Program-made: the position numbers and the translations under genes
Notes under the pieces: generated by a model
The model's input: only the letters and a program-made list of their open reading frames with translations
What the model was told of the DNA's origin: nothing
Databases searched by the model: none
Part shown: positions 8,738-31,215 of the stretch, piece after piece
Numbering within the stretch: the first letter of the stretch is position 1
Layout: each line of letters begins with the position of its first letter
IMG/VR virus record: IMGVR_UViG_3300029998_000088
Span: 1 to 31,328 of that record
From: a virus
DNA: 31,328 nt
Strand: one strand, 5' to 3'

Positions 8738-10132
8738 ATGCCAAACATAATAAGAATAAGAAATTTAGATAAAGAAACTAATATAACTGGTGGATTAATA
8801 TTTCCTGTTGATTATAGTGGTGATACACTAAATCAAGGCTACACTTCTAATATAAAAAGAATAGATTTAGCTCAAATTAAAGATTTTGTATTATTTGATT
8901 ATACTGGCTCAACAAGTGGAACTGATGGTACATCTGGTGTAGATGGTTCTTCTGGTGTACATGGTTCAAATGGTAGTTCTGGTATATCACCTTGTCATGC
9001 ATATCAATCGAATACAATAATAATATCTTATTCTTCAGTATCACAAACGCCATATATAATAACCACTATTCCAAAAATTGAAAGTCTACCAATTTCAACT
9101 ACTATACCATTTAATAGTGGTATTTGTTATATCGTTTCAGGAACAACAGGTGTAACTTTTTTTGTGACAGGATTAACAGGTTTAACTGATTATTCATATG
9201 AATGGTATTTAAACGATAAATTAGTAAATTTAGGTAATATTTATATACTATCATATCCTAATGATAATGATAAAATTTATTTAAAACAAATAAATTGCAC
9301 AAATGTTAATAATATTATGGTCGCAGAATATTGTGCTGATTGTAATTCTGGAGTAACTGGAACATTTAGATATAGGACAGATTCATATAATTCATATTTA
9401 GAAATTTGTATGAAATCTGGTGTTGGTAATTATATTTGGTATCCTATTGTCTCAAATTCATGGGCTACCACAACGACCACTACCACATTTCTAATTGTTA
9501 ATCCTCCGATACTAATAAATGCATATATTCAAAATGGAGATATTATGATAGCATATTCTGGCGTGTCTATTAACACTCCAACAATGAAGATATGGATTTC
9601 ATATGATGATAATGTCACTGGGTATCTAATTGATATAGATCCACTTACTCCTATTGTAAATATAGGGCAACAAACGAATTTCTTGAGACAAATGATGTGG
9701 TTTTGGGCTAGTGTACCAAATTCTTTATCATCAAATATTATTACTTTTGATAATTCTATTCCAGTCACAACTACAACAACCACAACCAATGCGACTACAA
9801 CAACCACAACAACCACCAACACACCAACCACAACAACTACAACGACAGTTTTTTCAAGTATAATGTATTATTGTGTAAAAAATAGTGGAGCTAATAATTA
9901 TACAGATGCATATAATTTATTTGATGTAGGATCAGCAGTACCTGTATATGTTTCTAGTATGACTAATGGTAACCAAGTTTATGATGATTCTGAATTGACG
10001 ATATTAGCATTTGATATATCATACTCGAACAAATATATCGCACTTACATCATCATTGAGTGATAATCCAACAATATGGATATTATTATTTGAAAATAGTG
10101 ATATTACAACACACGGTATCTATCAATTTTAG
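8738..10132 (+). CDS. Fibre-like structural protein with collagen-like and poly-Thr regions
   Basis: 464 residues. The N-terminal ~50 residues (MPNIIRIRNLDKETNITGGL) are shared with the next gene and likely anchor the protein in the particle. Residues ~57-82 are a collagen-like G-T-S-G/G-S-S-G repeat run. After a variable domain comes a Cys module (YCADCNSGVTGTFRYR, then SYLEICMKSG), also shared with the next gene. Several runs of Thr (around residues 245-251, 344-352 and 354-370) form linkers between beta-rich domains. This modular build is typical of phage fibres or decoration proteins. The Thr runs are potential O-glycosylation sites, notable beside the glycosyltransferase genes. It starts a new operon. 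Confidence 0.7.
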   Translation: MPNIIRIRNLDKETNITGGLIFPVDYSGDTLNQGYTSNIKRIDLAQIKDFVLFDYTGSTSGTDGTSGVDGSSGVHGSNGSSGISPCHAYQSNTIIISYSSVSQTPYIITTIPKIESLPISTTIPFNSGICYIVSGTTGVTFFVTGLTGLTDYSYEWYLNDKLVNLGNIYILSYPNDNDKIYLKQINCTNVNNIMVAEYCADCNSGVTGTFRYRTDSYNSYLEICMKSGVGNYIWYPIVSNSWATTTTTTTFLIVNPPILINAYIQNGDIMIAYSGVSINTPTMKIWISYDDNVTGYLIDIDPLTPIVNIGQQTNFLRQMMWFWASVPNSLSSNIITFDNSIPVTTTTTTTNATTTTTTTTNTPTTTTTTTVFSSIMYYCVKNSGANNYTDAYNLFDVGSAVPVYVSSMTNGNQVYDDSELTILAFDISYSNKYIALTSSLSDNPTIWILLFENSDITTHGIYQF

Positions 10133-10196
10133 ATATCAATAAATAATACCGCAAAAAAATAGAATAATAATTTGTAAAACACAAAAAAGTATACAT

Positions 10197-11252
10197 ATGC
10201 CAAACATAATAAGACCAAGAAATTTTGAAAAGGAATATAATTTAAACGGTGACATAATTTTACCTGTTGATAATTCTACATATGGAACAGTTAGTAAACA
10301 AATAAATTTATACCAAATAAAAGAATTCTCATTATCTGGTATAACAGATGTGAGTTCAAGTGGAAAAAATGGCACATCTGGTATGAATGGAATAATTGGT
10401 ATAGATGGAGAAAACGGTACATCAGGATTATTACCATCGTCAGGATTAACACACGAAGTTAATATATTAGATTATTGCGGAGATTGCAATTCAGATATAG
10501 TTGGAACTTTCAGGCATAGAATTAAACAAAATTTACCATATTTAGAAATATGTATGCAAACAGGCAGCAATGAATATTCATGGATTAATTGTATTCCTAC
10601 TACAACTACAACGACAACTATACCTCCTACAACTACAACGACAACTATACCTCCTACAACTACAACGACAACTATACCTCCTACAACTACAACGACAACA
10701 ACAACATATAATCCATTAACATTAATTAGTATACAACAAAGTGGAGGTACAGCAGATTTGATGACAATTTTTAACTCCGGAAATACAACAATAGGAACAT
10801 TAGCTTATCAATATTCAATAGACAACGGAGTTACATACACAGGTTTATTGGATTACGGTAGCGGTGTTAGTCCTAGAAATATTGGTAGTCAAATAATTTT
10901 TCCAAGAACAGGATTAACATTTAAAATATATGATGTCACATCATCCAGATTATCAAATTCTGCGTTTTATGATAACAAAGAAACATTAATTCTAAACTCA
11001 ATCATCAATAGTTCAGGTAGTTTAATTTTAGGATTTAATGATGGAGGACAATCTATATCAGCAATGGATATATATTATAGATTATCTTCAACAGGAGGAG
11101 CATGGATATATGTTAAAAACATATCCGGCGGATTATCTAGCCCAATTAATATAGGACTAAAAACAGAATATCCATTAACAGCAATTCAAATTATAACAAT
11201 GGATTATCCAGGATATAGATACTCAAGTATGATTTCTATCATAAATGTATAA
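10197..11252 (+). CDS. Second fibre-like structural protein, paralog of the preceding gene
   Basis: 351 residues with the same architecture as the gene before it: head MPNIIRPRNFEKEYNLNGDI, short collagen-like stretch (GTSGMNGIIGIDGENGTSG), Cys module (YCGDCNSDIVGTFRHR, PYLEICMQTG), then a Thr-Pro linker with three tandem T6-I-P-P units and a final T8. The C-terminal part (~170 residues) is beta-rich, with Gly and Ser, and could be the receptor-binding or exposed domain. A terminator hairpin follows 28 nt downstream. The divergence of the C-terminal halves combined with conserved heads fits swapping of tip domains. Confidence 0.7.
   Translation: MPNIIRPRNFEKEYNLNGDIILPVDNSTYGTVSKQINLYQIKEFSLSGITDVSSSGKNGTSGMNGIIGIDGENGTSGLLPSSGLTHEVNILDYCGDCNSDIVGTFRHRIKQNLPYLEICMQTGSNEYSWINCIPTTTTTTTIPPTTTTTTIPPTTTTTTIPPTTTTTTTTYNPLTLISIQQSGGTADLMTIFNSGNTTIGTLAYQYSIDNGVTYTGLLDYGSGVSPRNIGSQIIFPRTGLTFKIYDVTSSRLSNSAFYDNKETLILNSIINSSGSLILGFNDGGQSISAMDIYYRLSSTGGAWIYVKNISGGLSSPINIGLKTEYPLTAIQIITMDYPGYRYSSMISIINV
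10602..10709 (+). repeat. 27-bp in-frame tandem repeat encoding (T6-I-P-P)n
   Basis: Three identical 27-bp units (10602-10628, 10629-10655, 10656-10682) each encode TTTTTTIPP, followed by a partial fourth unit that runs into a longer Thr stretch. Identity at the DNA level, including third positions, points to recent expansion by slippage or recombination; copy-number changes would keep the frame. Confidence 0.9.
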
Positions 11253-15911: not shown

Positions 15912-17864
15912 GTGGCAAGAATCTCAAAACTTAATAGAATTTTCAATAGCATAGAATTAAATTATGCAAATTTAACAAATCAGTTAAATAATTGGATCAG
16001 TGCAACTTATAAAAAATCAAATATTCTTTATAATTCTGCTTCTCCATATGGACAAATTTTGAATTTTGTTAAAGAAATATTCATACAAAATATATTATAT
16101 GTCAAAAATGCAGTAAGACAATTAGATATAGATCAAGCTGTTACTATCAGAACGATAAGAAATATCGCAAGAATTTCAGGACACAATCCATCTAGGGCAA
16201 TATCAGCTCAAGGAACATTGAAATTTAAACTTAAGCAAGGAACAGATATCAGTCAGATTGCAGGTGGTAAAATTATAATATACAATGAAACACAATTAAA
16301 AAATATATCTAATAGTCTTTATTATTCAATAAAAACAGGAACGTATAGAAATTATTATACTTTAAAAAGTGGTTGTCAATTTTTCATTAATATAGTTCAA
16401 GGTAAATATGAAACACAAACATTCACTGGTGATGGTACATTATCTCAATCATTTCAAGTTGTAGTTAGCAACAATTCAACAATTGATAATTTTGATTTTC
16501 AAATATCATTAAATGGAGTAACATTAAAAGTAAGAGATCATTTATATGATATGCTACAAGATGAATATGCATGTTATACTAGAACTGGATTTAACGGTGG
16601 ATTAGATGTATACTTTGGTAATGGTATAAATGGTTGTATTCCTAATATTGGTTCTGTCATAGAAGTTAAATATTTAACAACAAATGGATTGGCTGGCAAT
16701 ATATTAAATAACAATATCAATGGATTCAATTTTATTACAGATATATATGACAGTGAAGGTAACATTATACAAGCTGATAAATTATTTGATATTTTTATAG
16801 AAACTGATATAAATTTTGCCAGTGATGGTGAGAGTATTGAATATACCAGATCTGTAATTCCTTATGTGTCAAGAAATTTTGTTCTTGCTACACCTGATCA
16901 ATTTATATACCATCTAATGAAATTGAATATGTTTTCAAAAGTTAACGCATTCAATACATTAGATACTATTAAAATTGATCTAAATTCTTCTACTACCAAT
17001 TTAGTAGAAACAAATTTAAATGAAATGTATTTGTATTTAATACCAAGAATAACAGATCATTTTTCATCTAGTGTTAATTATTTTAATGTTCCTTTTGATT
17101 ATTTTTATCTTAATCAAGATGAAAAAAATAGAATTATAAGTTATCTTAAAATTCAAGGTATTGTTAGTATATCATCAATAATAAATATCATAGATCCAAT
17201 AATAAAAAAATATATAGTAAATGTTTTTATTAGAAGGTATGATGATACATCAGAAGATAATATCAGAGAACAAGTTCTTGATACATTATCAACATACTTC
17301 TCTTCATATAGTAGATATGATAGAATTGTAAAAGCGAATTTAATAACAGAATTAAAAGATATTGATGGAATAGATTCTATAAATTTGGAATTTGTAGGTA
17401 AAGACAATGAAGATTACAATAGAAATGGAGCATTATTATCCTCTACGCAACCAAATGTATTACAATCTACTTATGTGTCTAATTCTAACTCTGTAAATGC
17501 ATACACTAATGTATATCAAAGTACAATAACATCAGCAAACAACTCAAACGCTATGAAATCTGATAGTAGTAAATCTGCAACAACTCCAAATTATTCAAGT
17601 TCAATAATTGGAAATTCAAATTTATCTGCTTCTATTGGTAATAGCACAGTTGTATCATATAATAATACATCACAATATGATTCATCAAAACTGATTGGAT
17701 TAGATCCAGTGTTGGGTGATATCATCATAGGAAACAACGAACTAGTAGTATTAAGAGGTGGTTGGATAAATAGAAACGGTATTTATTTTGGAGAAGATCC
17801 TACATCATCATCAGGATTTAGTACTGTTAATATTATTTGGAAAGGAGTAACATACAGAACATAA
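15912..17864 (+). CDS. Baseplate wedge protein, gp6/baseplate-J-like
   Basis: 650 residues with a GTG start at 15912, which is the first usable start in the frame and follows the previous gene by 18 nt. Features of the T4 gp6/baseplate-J family: GGLDVYFGNGINGCIPNIGS (around residues 227-246), then VIEVKYLTTNGLAGN. A DGESIEYTRSVIPYVSRNFV segment (around 302-321) with LATPDQFIYHL also matches. After residue ~505 there is a Ser/Asn/Thr-rich insert (NSNSVNAYTNVYQSTITSAN and onward) of ~100 residues before a final GGWINRNGIYFG segment. The insert looks like an unstructured spacer or decoration. It should form the wedge ring with gp25 and the large upstream protein. Confidence 0.85.
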   Translation: MARISKLNRIFNSIELNYANLTNQLNNWISATYKKSNILYNSASPYGQILNFVKEIFIQNILYVKNAVRQLDIDQAVTIRTIRNIARISGHNPSRAISAQGTLKFKLKQGTDISQIAGGKIIIYNETQLKNISNSLYYSIKTGTYRNYYTLKSGCQFFINIVQGKYETQTFTGDGTLSQSFQVVVSNNSTIDNFDFQISLNGVTLKVRDHLYDMLQDEYACYTRTGFNGGLDVYFGNGINGCIPNIGSVIEVKYLTTNGLAGNILNNNINGFNFITDIYDSEGNIIQADKLFDIFIETDINFASDGESIEYTRSVIPYVSRNFVLATPDQFIYHLMKLNMFSKVNAFNTLDTIKIDLNSSTTNLVETNLNEMYLYLIPRITDHFSSSVNYFNVPFDYFYLNQDEKNRIISYLKIQGIVSISSIINIIDPIIKKYIVNVFIRRYDDTSEDNIREQVLDTLSTYFSSYSRYDRIVKANLITELKDIDGIDSINLEFVGKDNEDYNRNGALLSSTQPNVLQSTYVSNSNSVNAYTNVYQSTITSANNSNAMKSDSSKSATTPNYSSSIIGNSNLSASIGNSTVVSYNNTSQYDSSKLIGLDPVLGDIIIGNNELVVLRGGWINRNGIYFGEDPTSSSGFSTVNIIWKGVTYRT

Positions 17865-18850: not shown

Positions 18851-19254
18851 TTATATTTTCACTGATATTGATGGAGTTTTAAATCCTAAATATAAAAAGA
18901 ATTGGGATAAAAAATGTATTAATAATTATAATAGAATTTGTAGCGATTTAAATTTAATTGCTATCATAACATCAACATGGAGAGTTAGATATACAATAGA
19001 AGAATTACAAAAAATATTCATTAAACAAGGAATAAAAGTAATTATAAATGATTACACACCAATTTTAAATACTGATAGAGGGTTAGAAATAAAAAAAATG
19101 GTTAGATGATAATGAGCATGATAAATATGTAATTATTGATGATAAAATTTCTGAAATAGTACCGTATGTTAATAATATAATACACTGTAAAGGATGGATT
19201 GGATTAACAGAAGAACATTACGAAGAAATAAAAAAAATGATGAATTATGGCTGA
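18843..19254 (+). pseudogene. HAD-like phosphatase (SAK-HAD type), frameshifted
   Basis: The ATG at 18843 overlaps gp25. Frame 1 (to the TGA at 19107-19109) reads NNYIFTDIDGVLNPKY, then LIAIITSTWRVRY and ends DRGLEIKKMVR. The sequence continues one frame over with WLDDNEHDKYVIIDDKISEI, then KGWIGLTEEHYEEIKKMM, ending at 19254. Removing one A from the A8 run at 19091-19098 joins them (EIKK-WLDD). The D-x-D-G-V-L nucleophile motif, the T/S motif (ITSTWR) and the late I-D-D motif are all present across the join, so the intact gene would be a ~136-residue HAD-fold phosphatase of the kind linked to nucleic-acid repair. The end overlaps terL by 8 nt. Confidence 0.7.
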
Positions 19255-19762
19255 TAATAAAGTTGAAGATTTTATATTAACAACAGAAATTGTAAATGAA
19301 ATAACAATAAAAGAAAATTTAGGTAAACCTTTAAAAAGGTTTGAAAAATTGTGGTTCTCTAACATGAGAGGTATTCGCAGAACAAATCTAACATTTGCTA
19401 TGACTGAGTTAGAATTTGAAGAATATATAAAATGTAAAATCAATGTTCAATATTTTGCTGAACATTATTGTCAAATTAAAAGAGAAGATGGTTCAATTGG
19501 TCCAATGAAACTACGTGACTATCAAAAAGATATTATTGACTTATATACAAAAAATTCAAGAAGTATATTAATGGCAAGTCGGCAGACAGGAAAATGTAAT
19601 TATTTTAACAACAAAGTTTTGATGAAAAATATTGACGGTACAGAATATACTATATCTATTGGAGAGTTATATTATAATGAATTAAAGAAGGATAGGAAGT
19701 TTAATATATTTGAAAAAATAAAAATACTTTTATATAAAATAATAGATAAAATTGAAAAATAA
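19247..19762 (+). CDS. terL: Terminase large subunit, N-terminal half fused to N-intein
   Basis: 171 residues. Residues 1-116 are the start of a T4 gp17-like terminase ATPase: a YCQIKREDGSIGPMKLRDYQ adenine-side segment, then RSILMASRQTGK, the first seven-eighths of the Walker A motif. At residue 117 the protein switches to an intein N-terminus: CNYFNNKVLMKNIDGTEYTI, then SIGELYYNELKKD. A Lys/Ile-rich tail ends the protein. The catalytic Cys1 directly follows the Walker A lysine. The rest of terL lies at 21986-23722. On its own this half lacks the Walker A threonine, Walker B and the nuclease, so a working terminase needs protein trans-splicing. It overlaps the HAD-like gene by 8 nt and is followed at once by a terminator. 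Confidence 0.9.
   Translation: MADNKVEDFILTTEIVNEITIKENLGKPLKRFEKLWFSNMRGIRRTNLTFAMTELEFEEYIKCKINVQYFAEHYCQIKREDGSIGPMKLRDYQKDIIDLYTKNSRSILMASRQTGKCNYFNNKVLMKNIDGTEYTISIGELYYNELKKDRKFNIFEKIKILLYKIIDKIEK
19595..19759 (+). other. N-terminal fragment of an atypically split intein
   Basis: 55 residues starting with Cys1 (TGT at 19595) and carrying block A (CNYFNNKVLMKN-x-x-G). Block B (with its T-x-H) is absent here and is found in the C-fragment instead. A break before block B is the atypical split arrangement known from the AceL-TerL intein, whose N-fragment is ~25 residues; that intein is also in a terminase. Here the core match covers about the first 30-33 residues (CNYFNNKVLM to YYNELKKD), and the last ~20 residues form an amphipathic Lys/Ile segment that resembles the first residues of the C-fragment. 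Confidence 0.88.
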
Positions 19763-21541: not shown

Positions 21542-21985
21542 ATGTTTAAAAAATTTATTAAAAATGTAATATATTTTATAATTCAATCTATTGAAAAATA
21601 TGAATTTAGAAATTTTAATCCTAATGAGGAAGATATAATGAAGAAATTCGTTAATACTATATTCCTTGATAAAGAAATATTAGTAGAAACAGATTATGGA
21701 TTTGTTCCAGTGACTGAAATGAATATAACTCAACCATTTCAAATATATAGTCTAGAATTAGAAAACGGATTATGGCTTGAAGGCGCTGATACTCATATGA
21801 TTTTTTGTAAAGATCATAATATAAAAATGTTAATAGATTTGACTACAGATGATTATGTATTAACAAAAAAAGGAGAAAGTAAAGTCAAAAAAATTTCTAA
21901 ACTAAAAAACAAAGTGAGTATGTTCGACCTATCTATAGATACTCCTGAAATGAGCTACTACACAAATGATATACTTTCTCATAAT
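21542..21985 (+). other. C-terminal fragment of the split intein
   Basis: 148 residues. The first ~40 (MFKKFIKNVIYFIIQSIEKY and onward) are an extension. The intein proper starts near FLDKEILVETDYGFVPVTEM. Block B is EGADTHMIFCKDHN (His at ~85), then DDYVLTKKGE. Block F is SMFDLSIDTPEMSYYTNDIL and block G ends SHN before Thr+1. The penultimate His and terminal Asn needed for Asn cyclisation are present. Layout and motifs align by eye with the AceL-TerL C-fragment (ending NGVVSHN). Cys1, the block B His, the terminal HN and a Thr+1 nucleophile are all intact, so trans-splicing competence is predicted. Confidence 0.9.
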
Positions 21986-23722
21986 ACAGTTTCTGCAGCC
22001 ATAGTTTTACTTCATTTCGTGCTATTTAATGATGATAAAGGATGTATGGTAGTGGCAAATAAAGGAAAAACAGTAAAAGAAATCATACGAAAAATAAAAG
22101 ATATTTATAAGTTAGTACCATTTTTTCTTAAAAAAGGAGTAACTAACTGGAATGAAACTCAGATTGCATTTGAAAATAATTCAAGAATTCAAACAGAGAA
22201 CAGAACTAAAGATCCCTCGATCGGATTTACTATAGATTTTCTTTATCTCGATGAGTTTGCTCACATTCCAGATAATTTCATTAGAGATTATTATGGTGCT
22301 ATTATTCCAGTAGTATCATCAGTTAATAATTCGCATATTGTAATAACATCTACTCCAAATGGATATAATATGTTTTGGGAATTATTCACAAATGCTGAAT
22401 TACCAGAGGATGATCCATTAAAAAATCCATATAAGGCTATGAGAGTCTTATGGAATCAAGTACCAGGAAGAGAAGACACTAAAATTAAAGTAATGGATGC
22501 TAAATTAAAAAAATTCAATATAGCAAAATCTTCTTTATTACGAGAAATAAGAGACAAATATGATATTACGTTATACAAAAAAAGCATAGGAGAAGATATG
22601 TTTGATTGTGTCGCTTATAATGTGTTGGATGAAAAAACTCACATTGGTAACATAAGAAAGATAAGAATAAATGGTATTCCTCTACCCGAATTGGCAGTTG
22701 TTAGTAACTGGCAAGAAGAAGAAACTAAATTATTATTATCCTCTGATAAATTTGATCAAGAATATGGATTACATTTTGTCACAGGAGATAAAATTCTTTT
22801 CAACAAAGACACAATTGATTTATTAAAAAGTAAACAATTACCTTTTGATAATATAAATATTAATCAATTTGAAAAGTTTAAATTTCCATATGAATCTTTA
22901 AAATTTGTAAAAGATTTAAGTCTATTTAATGTTGCGAGATCAAAAGAATACTACACAGTTCTTTCTATAGATTTATCAGAGGGACTAGCAAAAGATTTTT
23001 CTGTTATAAATATATTCAAATTAGAATTAAGAGATAAAAATGAAATAGAAAAATATGAATACGATAACATACAAGATTTATTTAAACTTGAGCAAATAGG
23101 ACTATTTAGAAACAATTTATACTCAATCAGAGAACTTGCCCATATGCTCTATCTTATTGCATTTGAGTTATTTGATCCAGAAAAAACTAAAATAGTACTA
23201 GAATATAATACATATGGTTCTGAATTATTAGCACATCTTCCTAATGTATTTGATGGTAAAAATAATTATTCGAATTCTGTATTTTTAAGATATAAACACA
23301 ACAGAGAAGATATAGCAGGTAAAATAGGAATGAAATTAAGTAAAGATAAACATCTAATTATTGACAAGGAATTTCAGCAATCAATTAGAAATAGAAAAAT
23401 GATATTACACAGTGAGATAAACATAAAGGAAATAACCACTTTTAGTAAGCATGAAACAACATCTGGTATGATTACATACAAAGCTGAGAGCGGAAACGAT
23501 GATGTTGTAATGACAACTATAACACTATCCACATGCTTTGATAATATTGGATATAAAAATTTGGTTGAATTATATGTAAATAATAATATTCAAGGTGATA
23601 TGCTAAGATATGTTGAGAATATTACTAGTTTATCTGAAAATACATCAGGACTAATTGGAGCACACAGTAGAATTTACAGACGAAATCCTACTATTTCAGG
23701 ATCAAGATATCCTGGAAGATAA
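21542..23722 (+). CDS. terL: C-intein fused to terminase large subunit C-terminal part
   Basis: 726 residues. Residues 1-148 are the intein C-fragment ending YYTNDILSHN. The terminase resumes at Thr149 with TVSAAIVLLHFVLFND, so the spliced Walker A reads SRQTGKT-VSAAI, as in T4 gp17 (SRQLGKT). Further gp17 landmarks: Walker B IDFLYLDEFAHIP (D237-E238), coupling motif VITSTPNG, then FDQEYGLHFVTGD. The nuclease has three acidic sites: VLSIDLSEG (~474-482), IVLEYNTYGSEL (~550-561) and SGNDDVVMTT (~649-658). The extein is 578 residues; with the 116-residue N-extein the mature terminase would be ~694. It powers DNA packaging and cuts the concatemer. A strong terminator overlaps the end. Confidence 0.92.
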   Translation: MFKKFIKNVIYFIIQSIEKYEFRNFNPNEEDIMKKFVNTIFLDKEILVETDYGFVPVTEMNITQPFQIYSLELENGLWLEGADTHMIFCKDHNIKMLIDLTTDDYVLTKKGESKVKKISKLKNKVSMFDLSIDTPEMSYYTNDILSHNTVSAAIVLLHFVLFNDDKGCMVVANKGKTVKEIIRKIKDIYKLVPFFLKKGVTNWNETQIAFENNSRIQTENRTKDPSIGFTIDFLYLDEFAHIPDNFIRDYYGAIIPVVSSVNNSHIVITSTPNGYNMFWELFTNAELPEDDPLKNPYKAMRVLWNQVPGREDTKIKVMDAKLKKFNIAKSSLLREIRDKYDITLYKKSIGEDMFDCVAYNVLDEKTHIGNIRKIRINGIPLPELAVVSNWQEEETKLLLSSDKFDQEYGLHFVTGDKILFNKDTIDLLKSKQLPFDNININQFEKFKFPYESLKFVKDLSLFNVARSKEYYTVLSIDLSEGLAKDFSVINIFKLELRDKNEIEKYEYDNIQDLFKLEQIGLFRNNLYSIRELAHMLYLIAFELFDPEKTKIVLEYNTYGSELLAHLPNVFDGKNNYSNSVFLRYKHNREDIAGKIGMKLSKDKHLIIDKEFQQSIRNRKMILHSEINIKEITTFSKHETTSGMITYKAESGNDDVVMTTITLSTCFDNIGYKNLVELYVNNNIQGDMLRYVENITSLSENTSGLIGAHSRIYRRNPTISGSRYPGR

Positions 23723-24087: not shown

Positions 24088-24858
24088 ATGGCAATAGCAA
24101 CAACGATTTCATATAAATTCTCCATGGATTTAACACAATTAGCATTCTTCTTAGAAAAAGTTCATGATTTAACCGCAATAGATAATGAAATTCTATTGAA
24201 GATAGACAAAGAAAAAATATTATTATATGCTGCTGTTGGCGAGAAAAATAATATTAACGCATTCAAATCATACATTTTTAATACTGATGAAATTTTTTCA
24301 TTTGAAACTGACATAGATCACGAAATAAGATACATTATAGTAAATGCAAAAAAATTCGAAATAACACTAAAAAATTATTTAGAATATCAGGAAAACATAA
24401 AATGTGAGTTTTCTATGAATGATGATACTTATGTTGATAATTTCAAATTGAAAAATTCAAAATTGAGATTAAGTATAGTAGGAGGAGATTTTCGTGCAGT
24501 AAACACGAATATTGACATGTCAATGATTGCATCTGTCTTAAATAAAGATTTAATTGATTTTCAATTTTCTCTTGATAAAAACTCATTTTTAAATATTAAA
24601 AAAATAGGTGCTATTGACAACGAAAATGATATATTAACATTAAATGTGACTGACAATTCACTCACTATTGGTGAAAATAATTGGGATTTAGAAATATGTA
24701 AAATTGAGCATGAAGATTTATCTATAACTTTTCCTAAAAAGTATTTCAAATCAATAACTTTCACAGAAAATGAAATAACAATATATGTTTTTGATACATT
24801 CATATTAATAGATAACGCAAACACAACATTATTAATTTCATTAGAATTAATAGTATAA
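24088..24858 (+). CDS. Probable DNA polymerase sliding clamp (gp45/PCNA-like)
   Basis: 256 residues. Weak but consistent pattern of a two-domain clamp. The first domain opens MDLTQLAFFLEKVHDLTAID with a NEILLKIDKEKILLYAAVGE strand pair. A linker (KLRLSIVGGDFRAVNTNIDM) is followed by the second domain (LIDFQFSLDKNSFLNIKKIG; NDILTLNVTDNSLTIGENNW). T4 gp45 is 228 residues and shows the same alternation and a similar 'INxxILLKxG' start. It would tether the replicative polymerase and, in T4, also activates late transcription, which would fit the TATA-like elements in this window. No catalytic residues are expected. A terminator follows. Confidence 0.6.
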   Translation: MAIATTISYKFSMDLTQLAFFLEKVHDLTAIDNEILLKIDKEKILLYAAVGEKNNINAFKSYIFNTDEIFSFETDIDHEIRYIIVNAKKFEITLKNYLEYQENIKCEFSMNDDTYVDNFKLKNSKLRLSIVGGDFRAVNTNIDMSMIASVLNKDLIDFQFSLDKNSFLNIKKIGAIDNENDILTLNVTDNSLTIGENNWDLEICKIEHEDLSITFPKKYFKSITFTENEITIYVFDTFILIDNANTTLLISLELIV

Positions 24859-24860
24859 CC

Positions 24861-24891
24861 AAAAAGAGAGAAATTTAATTTCTCTCTTTTT
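24861..24891. terminator. Bidirectional terminator after the clamp gene
   Basis: Inverted repeat AAAAAGAGAGAAATT / AATTTCTCTCTTTTT followed by further T residues, between the clamp stop and the convergent DUF7448-like gene whose stop lies inside it. Confidence 0.8.
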
Positions 24892-25312
24892 TTATTTCAT
24901 ATAACTTATTCAATTTTATTTTCCTTATCTCCTTAATTGGAAACACGCCTTCAATTTTAGTCATCTCTGCAGTTTCACTATAATATCCATTAGATTCACC
25001 ATACCAACGTATTGTTACATATCCTTTTGATGTACCAAATTTATAAAATGTCCAAGTTCCTGATTCCAACGCATTAGAATCTTTATTACTTGACTCTTCG
25101 GCTTGAATCAAATCATAACCTATCAAATCATTCAAATCACCATCTATATCTTCAATGTGAACATATTCACTACATTCAGTGTCATGACATTGTTTATAAA
25201 TAGAACCATTTGATAAATAAAAAGTAATTGAATCTTCTTCTTCACAATCACCTACACATTTATCTATCTTAATTATAACCTCACCTATTAATTCATCATA
25301 TATTGAAATCAT
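24875..25312 (-). CDS. DUF7448-like protein
   Basis: 145 residues. Characteristic segments: ELIGEVIIKIDKCVGDCEEE at the start, ITFYLSNGSIYKQCHD, then SEYVHIEDIDGDLNDLIG, TWTFYKFGTSKGYVTIRWYG and ESNGYYSE. The 'GYVTIRWYGESNGYYSE' stretch is the hallmark I associate with the DUF7448 family, found in many phages and bacteria with no established function. Five Cys/His residues in the N-terminal half could bind a metal, which is speculation. It is the last gene of a minus-strand run that includes endonuclease and exonuclease genes. Confidence 0.7.
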   Translation of the reverse strand: MISIYDELIGEVIIKIDKCVGDCEEEDSITFYLSNGSIYKQCHDTECSEYVHIEDIDGDLNDLIGYDLIQAEESSNKDSNALESGTWTFYKFGTSKGYVTIRWYGESNGYYSETAEMTKIEGVFPIKEIRKIKLNKLYEIKKERN

Positions 25313-26349: not shown

Positions 26350-26865
26350 TTACTTAGGTAACGTAATATTATATTTTTCAAAAAAGTATAATAAAGCTTC
26401 AGCGTTTCCAATACAATCAAAAACAGGATTATGATTATGTTCAGTTTTTCTATGTTTTTTCCATTTATAATATAAATTATGCTCTGCACCACAAAATAAA
26501 TCACCAATTCTACGACTTGACCACCCAAATGGATTACTACCATAATATTTATGAAAATAGAAATTTATCCAACTTGCATCATATCCGTTATTATCCGATA
26601 TTAATATTGGTTTATTTTTTGATACTGATTGTATCCATTCAGCAAAATCTTTCATTACTTTTTCTGGTTCATCAAAAGTTTCATGTTCTTCTCTACTAAA
26701 TCCACTAATTTCAAGTGCTTCTGAATCATATTCAGTTGAAATTGGTTTTGTTTTACCATAAAATGTTTTAGTTAAACCTGGTTCAACTAAAACAGCACCA
26801 AAGCAAACCATAGAATTTATACCTATAATTTGTCCATCACTTTCTACATCTACTACTATATACAT
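26350..26865 (-). CDS. DnaQ-like 3'-5' exonuclease (DEDDh type)
   Basis: 171 residues. ExoI motif: YIVVDVESDGQ at the N-terminus (D6, E8). ExoII: ISDNNGYDASWINFYF (D in the N-G-Y-D-A context, around residue 97). ExoIII: HNPVFDCIGNAEAL, with His and Asp five residues apart as in DEDDh enzymes. These give the full acidic set plus the His. It probably removes 3' nucleotides from DNA or RNA; as a single-domain protein it could proofread or recycle host nucleic acid. The gene starts 10 nt after the upstream methylglyoxal synthase stop. Confidence 0.85.
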   Translation of the reverse strand: MYIVVDVESDGQIIGINSMVCFGAVLVEPGLTKTFYGKTKPISTEYDSEALEISGFSREEHETFDEPEKVMKDFAEWIQSVSKNKPILISDNNGYDASWINFYFHKYYGSNPFGWSSRRIGDLFCGAEHNLYYKWKKHRKTEHNHNPVFDCIGNAEALLYFFEKYNITLPK

Positions 26866-26874
26866 TTTTATTTT

Positions 26875-27333
26875 TTATTCTCTATTATATTTTTTATAAG
26901 TAGGTAAAGATGGTTTATAATCGGTACCCCATAAATCTGAAGTAATCATAAGATCAGCAGAATGCCTATTACATGCAACTGGTATATCATGCAATCTACA
27001 TTGTCGCAGCAACATTTGTATATCAGCTTGATGTGGATTTGCATTTAAATCATCAATTAAAAATATACACAAATCAATTTCATCTTTAACAACCATTGAT
27101 GCTATTTCTGCATCTCCTCCAAGTGGTCCAGAATTCATCATTATTATTGAAACTCTATCAATATTTTTAGATTCACAATATTCATCTAAACACTCTTTAA
27201 TTAATTTACCTGTTGTTCCAGTACAAACCAATTTATTTTTCTGTAATGTTTCAGCATTATATTTAACCCACTCGATCATATCTGATTTTCTGTAATCATG
27301 AGCAATTAATGCAATCATTTTATCTATTATCAT
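26875..27333 (-). CDS. mgsA: Methylglyoxal synthase
   Basis: 152 residues from the ATG at 27333, the size of E. coli MgsA; a longer in-frame start would only add a low-complexity repeat-derived tail. Family motifs: IALIAHDYRKSDMIEW (H12), CTGTTGK phosphate loop (~37-43), SGPLGGDAEI (D74, matching E. coli catalytic Asp71), FLIDDLNANPHQADIQMLLR (D94, H101, D104 matching Asp91, His98 and Asp101) and IPVACNRHSADLMI. It would convert dihydroxyacetone phosphate to methylglyoxal plus phosphate. All key residues I know of are kept, so an active enzyme is predicted. A TATATTTGC box 15 nt before the start suggests host-polymerase (early) expression. This is an unusual auxiliary metabolic gene for a phage. 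Confidence 0.88.
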   Translation of the reverse strand: MIIDKMIALIAHDYRKSDMIEWVKYNAETLQKNKLVCTGTTGKLIKECLDEYCESKNIDRVSIIMMNSGPLGGDAEIASMVVKDEIDLCIFLIDDLNANPHQADIQMLLRQCRLHDIPVACNRHSADLMITSDLWGTDYKPSLPTYKKYNRE

Positions 27334-27364: not shown

Positions 27365-27823
27365 TTATTGATTAAAAAAATTTTTATTGTTATTGTTATT
27401 GTTATTGTTATTATCAATTTTTAATTTTGAAAATTCTTCCTCAAATATTATATTTCTTGGAGGCTCTTCAATGAAAAACATATTAGCCATTTCTTGATTA
27501 GAATAACCATTAAGATTTATTTTAATTCCAGAATATGCTACTAAAAATTCTAAATTTTTATTCTCTTCTGCGAATAAATACAATTTTTTTATTTGATTAA
27601 TAATATGTTCTGAACTTACTGATGGATGATTATATTTAGTCAAATTCTTTGTTACGATCGCATAAGATTGTCCTTGTAAACCATATGCTTGACCATATAT
27701 CGCACCAAATTTATCTTTTGCTTTAAGAGCAGCACCTTTACCATGTCTTCCTTGTGTATTAGAACCAAATACATATATCTGATGAGGTTTCAATTTTAAT
27801 ATTTTTCCTTTATAAGTCTTCAT
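27365..27823 (-). CDS. Macro-like phage non-structural protein (A1S_2505-type)
   Basis: 152 residues from the ATG at 27823; an upstream TTG is less likely. The core IYVFGSNTQGRHGKGAALKA, then FGAIYGQAYGLQGQSYAIVT, is the signature of the 'A1S_2505 family phage non-structural protein', resembling the nucleotide-ribose-binding loops of macro domains (V-F-G-S-N-x-x-G-R-H-G-x-G-A-A). A later EFLVAYSGIKINLNGYSNQE fits the fold's last strands. It may bind or process an ADP-ribose-like ligand; notable because a putative ADP-ribosyltransferase is encoded at 30114. The C-terminus is a poly-Asn tail from a hexanucleotide repeat. A -7 box lies only 3 nt before the ATG. Confidence 0.8.
   Translation of the reverse strand: MKTYKGKILKLKPHQIYVFGSNTQGRHGKGAALKAKDKFGAIYGQAYGLQGQSYAIVTKNLTKYNHPSVSSEHIINQIKKLYLFAEENKNLEFLVAYSGIKINLNGYSNQEMANMFFIEEPPRNIIFEEEFSKLKIDNNNNNNNNNKNFFNQ
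27384..27413. repeat. Hexanucleotide repeat (TTATTG)4-TTATTA
   Basis: Five successive 6-bp units encode the Asn-rich C-terminal tail of the macro-like protein on the minus strand. Unit gains or losses change tail length without shifting the frame. Confidence 0.9.
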
Positions 27824-27826
27824 ATA

Positions 27827-27834
27827 CAAATATA
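27827..27834 (-). promoter_or_regulatory. Bacteroidota-type -7 box next to the macro-like gene start
   Basis: TATATTTG on the minus strand ends 3 nt before the ATG at 27823. If used, the message would be leaderless or nearly so. Confidence 0.4.
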
Positions 27835-29254: not shown

Positions 29255-30046
29255 TCACACTATTATTTTATTATCAAATTCTTCTTCAAGAGCATTAATC
29301 ATTTTTTGCATATTAGCAGAATAAAAACCAGCAGAATTTATACATCCTAACTCAATTATCTTATACTCAGGTTTACCATCTATAATAACTTCACAAATAT
29401 CAATTACAAATGATTTTGCTATCTTATAAATATCAATCATCTCTTTACAAAATTCTAATGCACCATCATCAACAACTTCACTTCTATTGATAAAATTACC
29501 CATTCTATAAAGACTTCCAGTTACAACTTTATCTTCAACAACCCAAAATCTAAATTCTTTTGTTATTTTTTTAACAGAACAAACTTGAATTTCAGTATCT
29601 TTTGTTAATGATGTTTCATATTCACCATTTAAACAACCATCTCTAAATTCTAACCATTCATACATATCAAACACCTTTCCAGTGAATGTTTTTGTGTCTT
29701 CACAAGGTCTTGCAAAAAATAAATCAGTTCTATTAATATCATCTCCAAATTTTTGAACTACAGAGTCATAATTCAATAAATTATCCTTGTAATATTTACT
29801 ATAAACTCTATAATCATGATTCTCATTTAATTGAGATCCAGGAAACCATTCATATTTTTTTGCTAACCTTGCCATTTTAACAGAACCAAAACAAAAAACA
29901 TCCTTTCTATCAGTCTTAAATTCAAAATCTTCTACAAATGGTAAAACCTTAACTATCTCATAAGATAAATTCATTCTATCTAATGTTTCAACTAAATTAT
30001 AATAATTCTCTTCCTTGAAAGTGTTTTCTTGTATTACGTAGTACAT
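29255..30046 (-). CDS. ATP-grasp domain protein (DUF4343-like)
   Basis: 263 residues. The pattern fits the DUF4343 ATP-grasp family: FFARPCEDTKTFTGKVFDMY (~110-129), ITKEFRFWVVEDKVVTGSLY with following RMG (~161-183), then KSFVIDICEVIIDGKPEYKI and IELGCINSAGFY (~236-247). The E-L-x-x-I-N-S-A-G-F-Y segment carries the metal-binding Glu and Asn of the ATP-grasp fold, and the E-F-R-F-W-V segment lines the ATP site. Such enzymes join a carboxylate to an amine or thiol using ATP; the substrate is unknown. First gene of the minus-strand run, with a 67-nt divergent region to its right. Confidence 0.8.
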   Translation of the reverse strand: MYYVIQENTFKEENYYNLVETLDRMNLSYEIVKVLPFVEDFEFKTDRKDVFCFGSVKMARLAKKYEWFPGSQLNENHDYRVYSKYYKDNLLNYDSVVQKFGDDINRTDLFFARPCEDTKTFTGKVFDMYEWLEFRDGCLNGEYETSLTKDTEIQVCSVKKITKEFRFWVVEDKVVTGSLYRMGNFINRSEVVDDGALEFCKEMIDIYKIAKSFVIDICEVIIDGKPEYKIIELGCINSAGFYSANMQKMINALEEEFDNKIIV

Positions 30047-30854: not shown

Positions 30855-30858
30855 TTTG

Positions 30859-30931
30859 TGCTCCTGGTGAGAATCGAACTCACAACCTTTTCCTTAAGAG
30901 GGAATAGCTCAACCAATTAAGCTACAAGAGC
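30859..30931 (-). tRNA. tRNA-Lys (CTT)
   Basis: 73 nt with full cloverleaf: acceptor GCTCTTG/CAGGAGC (one G-U), discriminator A, U8-A9, D-stem GCTT/GAGC, anticodon loop CTCTTAA giving CTT, T-arm GTGAG-TTCGATT-CTCAC. The first anticodon-stem pair is A-A. CCA is not encoded. Confidence 0.85.
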
Positions 30932-30985
30932 ATTTTTGATGTCAAAAAAGATTACAAAGGTTGTCAACCTTTACTGAGGACTAAT

Positions 30986-31033
30986 CAGCTACTATCGGAA
31001 TCGAACCAAGGCTTCCAGCACTTCATAAATACT
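30986..31033 (-). tRNA. tRNA 3'-half remnant (anticodon-like loop ATG)
   Basis: A T-arm-like TTGG-TTCGATT-CCGA is followed by a possible acceptor strand AGTAGCT, and preceded by a hairpin AGTAT-TTATGAA-GTGCT that would be an anticodon arm. There is no room for a D-arm or 5' acceptor strand before tRNA-His, so it is a truncated tRNA or relic. Confidence 0.35.
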
Positions 31034-31044
31034 CTTTTTCTTGG

Positions 31045-31118
31045 GGTGAATAATCGGATTTGAACCGACCCTTAAAGAACCACAATCTATCGTGCTAACC
31101 ACTAACACTACATCCACC
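31045..31118 (-). tRNA. tRNA-His (GTG)
   Basis: Acceptor GTGGATG/TATTCAC with the extra G-1 opposite C73 that marks histidine tRNAs, U8-A9, D-stem GTGT/GCAC, anticodon loop TTGTGGT giving GTG, T-arm GTCGG-TTCAAAT-CCGAT. CCA appears to be encoded just after C73 (31042-31044). Confidence 0.88.
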
Positions 31119-31128
31119 ATTTATTTTG

Positions 31129-31215
31129 GGTGTCAGATGGGATTCGAACCCACATTAACTGTTAAGTATTCCTGATTCACAATCAGGGCGGCATCCCTTA
31201 CCGACTACAAACACC
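31129..31215 (-). tRNA. tRNA with GTG anticodon and enlarged variable region (His-like)
   Basis: Acceptor GTGTTTG/CTGACAC (one T-T mismatch) with G-1 and C73 as in tRNA-His, perfect anticodon stem CCTGA/TCAGG with loop TTGTGAA (GTG), T-arm GTGGG-TTCGAAT-CCCAT. The segment between anticodon and T arms is ~17 nt and can form a short stem (TTA/TAA), unlike normal histidine tRNAs. The D-stem is weak. Confidence 0.75.

Follow-up and report, generated by a model that had tools for sequence, protein, structure and literature searches.

We report that a viral stretch of DNA (hereafter the window, an entire IMG/VR record of 31,328 bases) carries an intact gene for methylglyoxal synthase, mgsA. The protein has the fold and the active-site residues of the bacterial enzymes and is of Bacteroidota-type ancestry, and the gene is under strong purifying selection in a phage context. 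It thus has what one expects of an auxiliary metabolic gene: a metabolic function of host type, a contig that is genuinely phage, and maintenance by selection. Judging from its sequence, the protein is very probably a working methylglyoxal synthase. We propose, tentatively and with not quite an even chance of being right, that this gene serves a huge T4-like phage of Bacteroidota by freeing phosphate and bypassing glycolysis. The genes of the window that matter for the argument are the following.

26875..27333, minus strand: mgsA, methylglyoxal synthase, 152 aa (NF003559, active-site alignment, AlphaFold2 model)
27365..27829, minus strand: A1S_2505-family phage protein (function unknown), upstream of mgsA (NF049995, 107.9 bits; phrog_2072)
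26350..26865, minus strand: DEDDh/Rv2179c-like 3'-5' exonuclease, downstream of mgsA (PDLC00753, 9.8e-32; phrog_192; PF16473 below cut-off)
24875..25312, minus strand: DUF7448 protein, further downstream of mgsA (PF24240, 79.2 bits; syntenic in L002, L003 and L004)
24088..24858, plus strand: conserved neighbour, possibly sliding-clamp-like to judge from its size and position (89% identical syntenic homologue in L002)
29255..30046, minus strand: R2K ATP-grasp protein, part of the run of minus-strand genes to which mgsA belongs (PF14243, 56.2 bits)
21542..23722, plus strand: terminase large subunit, C-terminal part (phrog_36964, 3.7e-27; phrog_2, 4.2e-18)
15912..17864, plus strand: baseplate wedge protein (phrog_219, 2.4e-10)

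The mgsA open reading frame starts with an ATG at 27333 and ends at 26875 on the minus strand, exactly where an earlier note on this DNA had placed it. The open frame continues upstream past this codon to a TTG at 27417, and the ATG, not the TTG, is the start common to the relatives. At 27365-27417, a run of TTATTG repeats gives the A1S_2505 protein a poly-asparagine tail and is also what lets the mgsA frame extend to the TTG. The earlier note had called the product a phage-encoded methylglyoxal synthase, and the searches agree. The protein scores 159.1 bits against the NCBIfam equivalog family of methylglyoxal synthase (NF003559, cut-off 84) and 34.8 bits against the Pfam family MGS (cut-off 24.1). 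Its score against TIGR00160, 128.1 bits, is below the cut-off of 146.9. This cut-off looks strict, since it was missed by 7 of the 8 other MgsA proteins scanned, including two Bacteroidota chromosomal ones of the same phylogenetic branch. A sequence search of the PDB gave 11 matches, all of them MgsA, with the Elizabethkingia enzyme 6phe at the top (8.7e-32). There is no PHROGs family matching the protein. PADLOC gave no match for MgsA itself, the exonuclease being the only neighbour that matched, and a known defence or anti-defence protein was therefore rejected as its identity.

The window protein is identical to E. coli MgsA at 52 of 142 aligned residues, an agreement that, on this alignment, is far beyond chance. 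All six catalytic residues of the E. coli enzyme (H19, D20, D71, D91, H98, and D101) are found in the window protein, as H12, D13, D74, D94, H101, and D104, and the last four had rightly been singled out as intact in the earlier note. The phosphate loop described there, CTGTTGK against ATGTTGN in E. coli, also aligns as expected, with T38, G39, T40, and T41 at the positions of T45, G46, T47, and T48. More generally, the phosphate-binding K23, T45, T47, T48, S65, and G66 of E. coli correspond to K16, T38, T40, T41, S68, and G69, and R110 is kept as well. The other viruses show the same conservation: 57 of 57 distinct viral proteins keep H19, D20, K23, T45, S65, G66, D71, D91, H98, D101, and R107 (E. 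coli numbers), a count that is partly biased because the scan used to fetch them searched for two motifs containing some of those residues.

The AlphaFold2 model of the window protein, made from 32 relatives, has a mean pLDDT of 93. When compared by VIA-align with twelve solved MgsA entries, it gives Z scores of 19.1-22.6, against 12.7 for the MGS domain of carbamoyl phosphate synthetase and 10.1 for PurH/IMP cyclohydrolase, with which it shares 11-14% identity. A non-MgsA member of the fold was rejected as the identity of the protein, given these higher Z scores to MgsA, the NF003559 score, and the identity of all the PDB matches. The earlier note had made its reading depend on the protein not falling with non-MgsA relatives of the fold, and in our phylogeny it groups with true MgsA. 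In summary, it shares with bacterial MgsA (E. coli b0963; PDB 1b93, 6phe, 1wo8) the fold, at a Z of about 22, the catalytic and phosphate-loop residues, the length, and the NF003559 score. It differs in being carried by a phage, in an insertion of about 10 residues within positions 50-62, and in the branch-specific residues I93-D94-D95, Q111, and R113.

To place the gene among its relatives we used the genome contigs and a tree. A search of the contigs with the single protein gave no match; the profile search did, and the closest chromosomal genes are those of Bacteroidota, with up to 70% identity and ordinary chromosomal neighbours. A tree built from 118 proteins puts the window protein into a branch (support 98/86) whose members are 29 bacterial and 14 viral proteins, the bootstrap of this tree being not fully settled and the forks inside the branch remaining open. 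A phylogeny against host MgsA had been suggested in the earlier note as a way to identify transfer, and at the level of the branch it indicates a Bacteroidota-type source. The Bacteroidota chromosomal genes (L095, at 70%; L100, Prevotella; L102, Paramuribaculum) are in the same branch and have the same signature residues as the window protein; unlike the window gene, they are chromosomal, have higher GC, and lack phage neighbours. Across the tree the viral label changes at least six times on well-supported branches: phages that are not related to each other acquired or lost mgsA on several occasions.

The branch is recognizable by residues that are invariant or nearly so within it and rare elsewhere, namely V81, I93, D95, Q111, and R113. 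In its 43 sequences, D95 (P92 in E. coli) and Q111 (L108) are invariant and R113 (T110) is nearly so. These three adjoin catalytic positions, and D95 replaces the proline that follows the catalytic aspartate. Such a pattern, together with the score below the TIGR00160 cut-off, could mean that the enzymes of the Bacteroidota/phage branch have changed their substrate or their regulation (e.g., by loss of inhibition by Pi) and have ceased to be plain MgsA. We regard this as improbable. All the catalytic residues are kept, the fold is closest to MgsA, NF003559 is matched above its cut-off, and other viral MgsA that lack the signature also miss the TIGR00160 cut-off. Moreover, 25 of the 26 bacterial genomes carrying the branch type had no second MgsA found with a canonical-type probe (the start of the L104 MgsA followed by a tail composed in the family style). 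As no other MgsA homologue turned up in these 25 genomes, the branch type probably does the MgsA job in the bacteria that carry it. The PDB sequence search found no member of the branch among the solved structures. A bolder version seems to us very improbable: that regulation has changed in the branch with D95, Q111, and R113, for instance by escape from Pi inhibition, and that methylglyoxal itself thereby serves huge phages as an agent for taking over the host or excluding competitors.

The place of the gene is conserved in all close relatives. The A1S_2505-family gene is upstream of mgsA in L002, L003, L004, L005, L006, L020, L024, and L029, and the order A1S_2505 - mgsA - exonuclease is kept in all of these but L005, which ends just after mgsA and before the position of the exonuclease. 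Small genes or endonuclease genes are sometimes inserted in this order, and the synteny persists down to about 70% MgsA identity. Further away, the gene at 24088..24858 has no match in Pfam, NCBIfam, or PHROG. In three related phages, a homologue of KptA/Tpt1 (RNA 2'-phosphotransferase) is found a few genes downstream of mgsA: L020 (4269-4799), L024 (8803-9351), and L029 (10118-10774); it was scored for L020 alone (E 2.9e-57, with a score below the curated cut-offs).

We then estimated the selection acting on the gene. The dN/dS of mgsA against near relatives is 0.047 for L002 and 0.066 for L005 (dS about 0.5, dN 0.022-0.035), which is below the values of all four neighbouring genes measured, among them the clamp-like gene (0.083), the A1S_2505 gene (0.08-0.09), and the exonuclease (0.37). 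With such values mgsA is not decaying cargo. A pseudogene or a host contamination was ruled out by dN/dS, synteny, and the phage hallmark genes.

The terminase gene shows that the contig comes from a T4-like phage. The best match of both the terminase (49.6%) and the baseplate protein (44.6%) is LR756501, of 735 kb, and genomes of 634-642 kb are also among the best matches of the two. The paper that describes these genomes assigns all of them to the Mahaphage clade and predicts Bacteroidetes as hosts (PMC7162821). The window is a fragment of a T4-like phage which, by best match, would be a huge phage near the Mahaphages, the genomes of 634-735 kb having the terminase and baseplate proteins closest to those of the window. 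Unlike the window phage, the public Mahaphage genomes gave no mgsA by tblastn. Two other regions of the window are worth mentioning. Three tRNA genes (Lys-ctt and two His-gtg) are found at its end (30858-31214), the two adjacent His tRNAs being unusual, and the region 8738-11252 encodes two probable structural proteins of fibre type, which have long runs of threonine and GTSG repeats resembling collagen.

A profile scan of IMG/VR revealed 360 stretches encoding MgsA relatives. Among the best 80 of these 360, which were kept for analysis, many are on contigs with a T4-like terminase or a gp23 capsid gene. Some of the mgsA-bearing records are 200-545 kb long, and gp23 is present in 10 of 22 mgsA-bearing records compared with 0 of 14 control genomes. 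These results show that mgsA is common in viral metagenomes and that the window gene is not unique. Three further genes of the 140-kb relative (G003), at L170 5136-6335, L166 17688-18719, and L165 8689-10080, encode a nicotinate phosphoribosyltransferase, a protein with an IMP dehydrogenase/GMP reductase domain, and an RtcB ligase. The search of INPHARED gave no verified cultured phage with mgsA. None of its 22 records with a match is annotated, and those that were opened carry the mark UNVERIFIED. In the four for which we read the gene neighbourhood, it resembles bacterial chromosome (transporters, a ksgA-like gene), so we rejected these matches as phage mgsA.

Two papers list mgsA among the auxiliary metabolic genes of viruses, one for Lake Baikal, where its scaffold was assigned to the virotype Caulobacter phage Cr30 (PMC8066274), and one for a deep-sea brine pool (PMC11252502). 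As listed there, these genes are virus-borne like that of the window; they are single list entries that the text gives without sequence analysis, whereas the window lineage is of Bacteroidota type and close to the Mahaphages. Hence, viral mgsA is already known as an auxiliary gene, and what is new here is a real, selected mgsA in a huge-phage lineage. The entries of the published lists name the gene without a functional test, and our search of the literature found no paper testing a phage MgsA.

The earlier note had also expected early expression from a host-type -7 box, for which we found no support. The sequence TATATTTG begins 24 bases before the ATG of mgsA. The motif TAnnTTTG is no commoner than expected by chance, with 58 occurrences in the window for 66 expected under a dinucleotide model, and is absent in front of mgsA in L002, L005, and L006. 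Early mgsA expression from a host -7 promoter is thus not supported. In L005, the start codon of mgsA overlaps the stop of the upstream gene, which makes it likely that the two are co-transcribed as an operon.

Phages redirect host carbon and phosphate metabolism, and most of the examples come from cyanophages. That an intact, selected MgsA occurs in huge phages of Bacteroidota, and the gene in several unrelated phage lineages as well, suggests that the branch from dihydroxyacetone phosphate (DHAP) to methylglyoxal is repeatedly useful during infection. The MgsA reaction, which produces methylglyoxal and Pi from DHAP, is allosterically inhibited by Pi and is believed to be important when phosphate is limiting (PMC11850910). 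The phage enzyme would carry out this conversion during infection. As phage nucleotide synthesis draws down free phosphate, low Pi would open the reaction, assuming that the phage enzyme is regulated by Pi. Phosphate would then be returned from trapped triose phosphates, and upper glycolysis could run past the GAPDH step, which requires Pi. Considering the high phosphate demand for nucleotides in replication, a Pi-relieved, phosphate-freeing bypass seems the most economical explanation, and we take phosphate release with glycolytic bypass as the most likely benefit, with a probability somewhat under one half.

The gene content of the mgsA-bearing viruses bears on this proposal. PhoH, present in 11 of 32 mgsA-bearing virus records, counts for the phosphate role; it is common in T4-like phages anyway. 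A PstS-type phosphate-binding protein is found in only 1 of the 32, which counts against it. No phosphate or glycolysis gene adjoins mgsA, and no neighbour recurs across the unrelated mgsA phages examined. We also count against it the change from P92 to D95 in the branch, the lack of a branch member among the solved structures, and the TIGR00160 score below the cut-off.

The phage copy might instead serve to boost flux, adding MgsA capacity that the phage controls or supplying hosts that lack it and draining DHAP when infection blocks lower glycolysis, with no single specific role. Only 139 of 296 Bacteroidota genomes have an MgsA match, so many hosts may lack the enzyme, and the six or more label changes among unrelated phages, with no shared gene partner, are consistent with this. 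Yet the host prediction stops short of a species in which a host copy could be checked, and metabolite data would be needed to tell such a role from the phosphate explanation. We hold it to be unlikely.

The main rival is that the gene acts in growth control or poisoning: the toxicity of methylglyoxal would arrest the host, damage macromolecules, and disfavour co-infecting phages. Methylglyoxal is a toxic electrophile (PMC11850910). Glyoxalase (PF00903) is found in 0 of 32 mgsA-bearing virus records, compared with 12 of 14 control genomes, and these viruses therefore carry the producer without that detoxifying enzyme, although the count covers mostly fragment records and PF00903 only, DJ-1 type glyoxalases and reductases being outside the search. 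However, methylglyoxal would also hit the DNA and proteins of the phage in the same cell, and the Bacteroidota of the branch already carry the same type of enzyme. We consider this reading unlikely. The counts of glyoxalase, PhoH, and PstS and the lack of a recurrent neighbour are not decisive between phosphate release, flux relief, and toxicity, and phosphate release with glycolytic bypass remains our preferred explanation.

Finally, the terminase large subunit gene of the window is interrupted within the Walker A motif (GK|T) and lies in two parts, at 19247-19762 and 21542-23722. The first part ends with an intein-like N part starting in Cys, and the second opens with an intein-like C part, of which the final HN precedes the T. 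Two endonuclease-like ORFs lie between the halves on the opposite strand. The terminase of L002 is uninterrupted at this place (RQTGKTVSAA). In the 735-kb phage LR756501 the halves (L163 5081-5626 and 17998-20265) are about 12 kb apart, with a Pfam Intein_splicing match of 9e-6, below its cut-off. From these motifs, the arrangement looks like a split intein, which would imply protein trans-splicing of the product of an essential phage gene.
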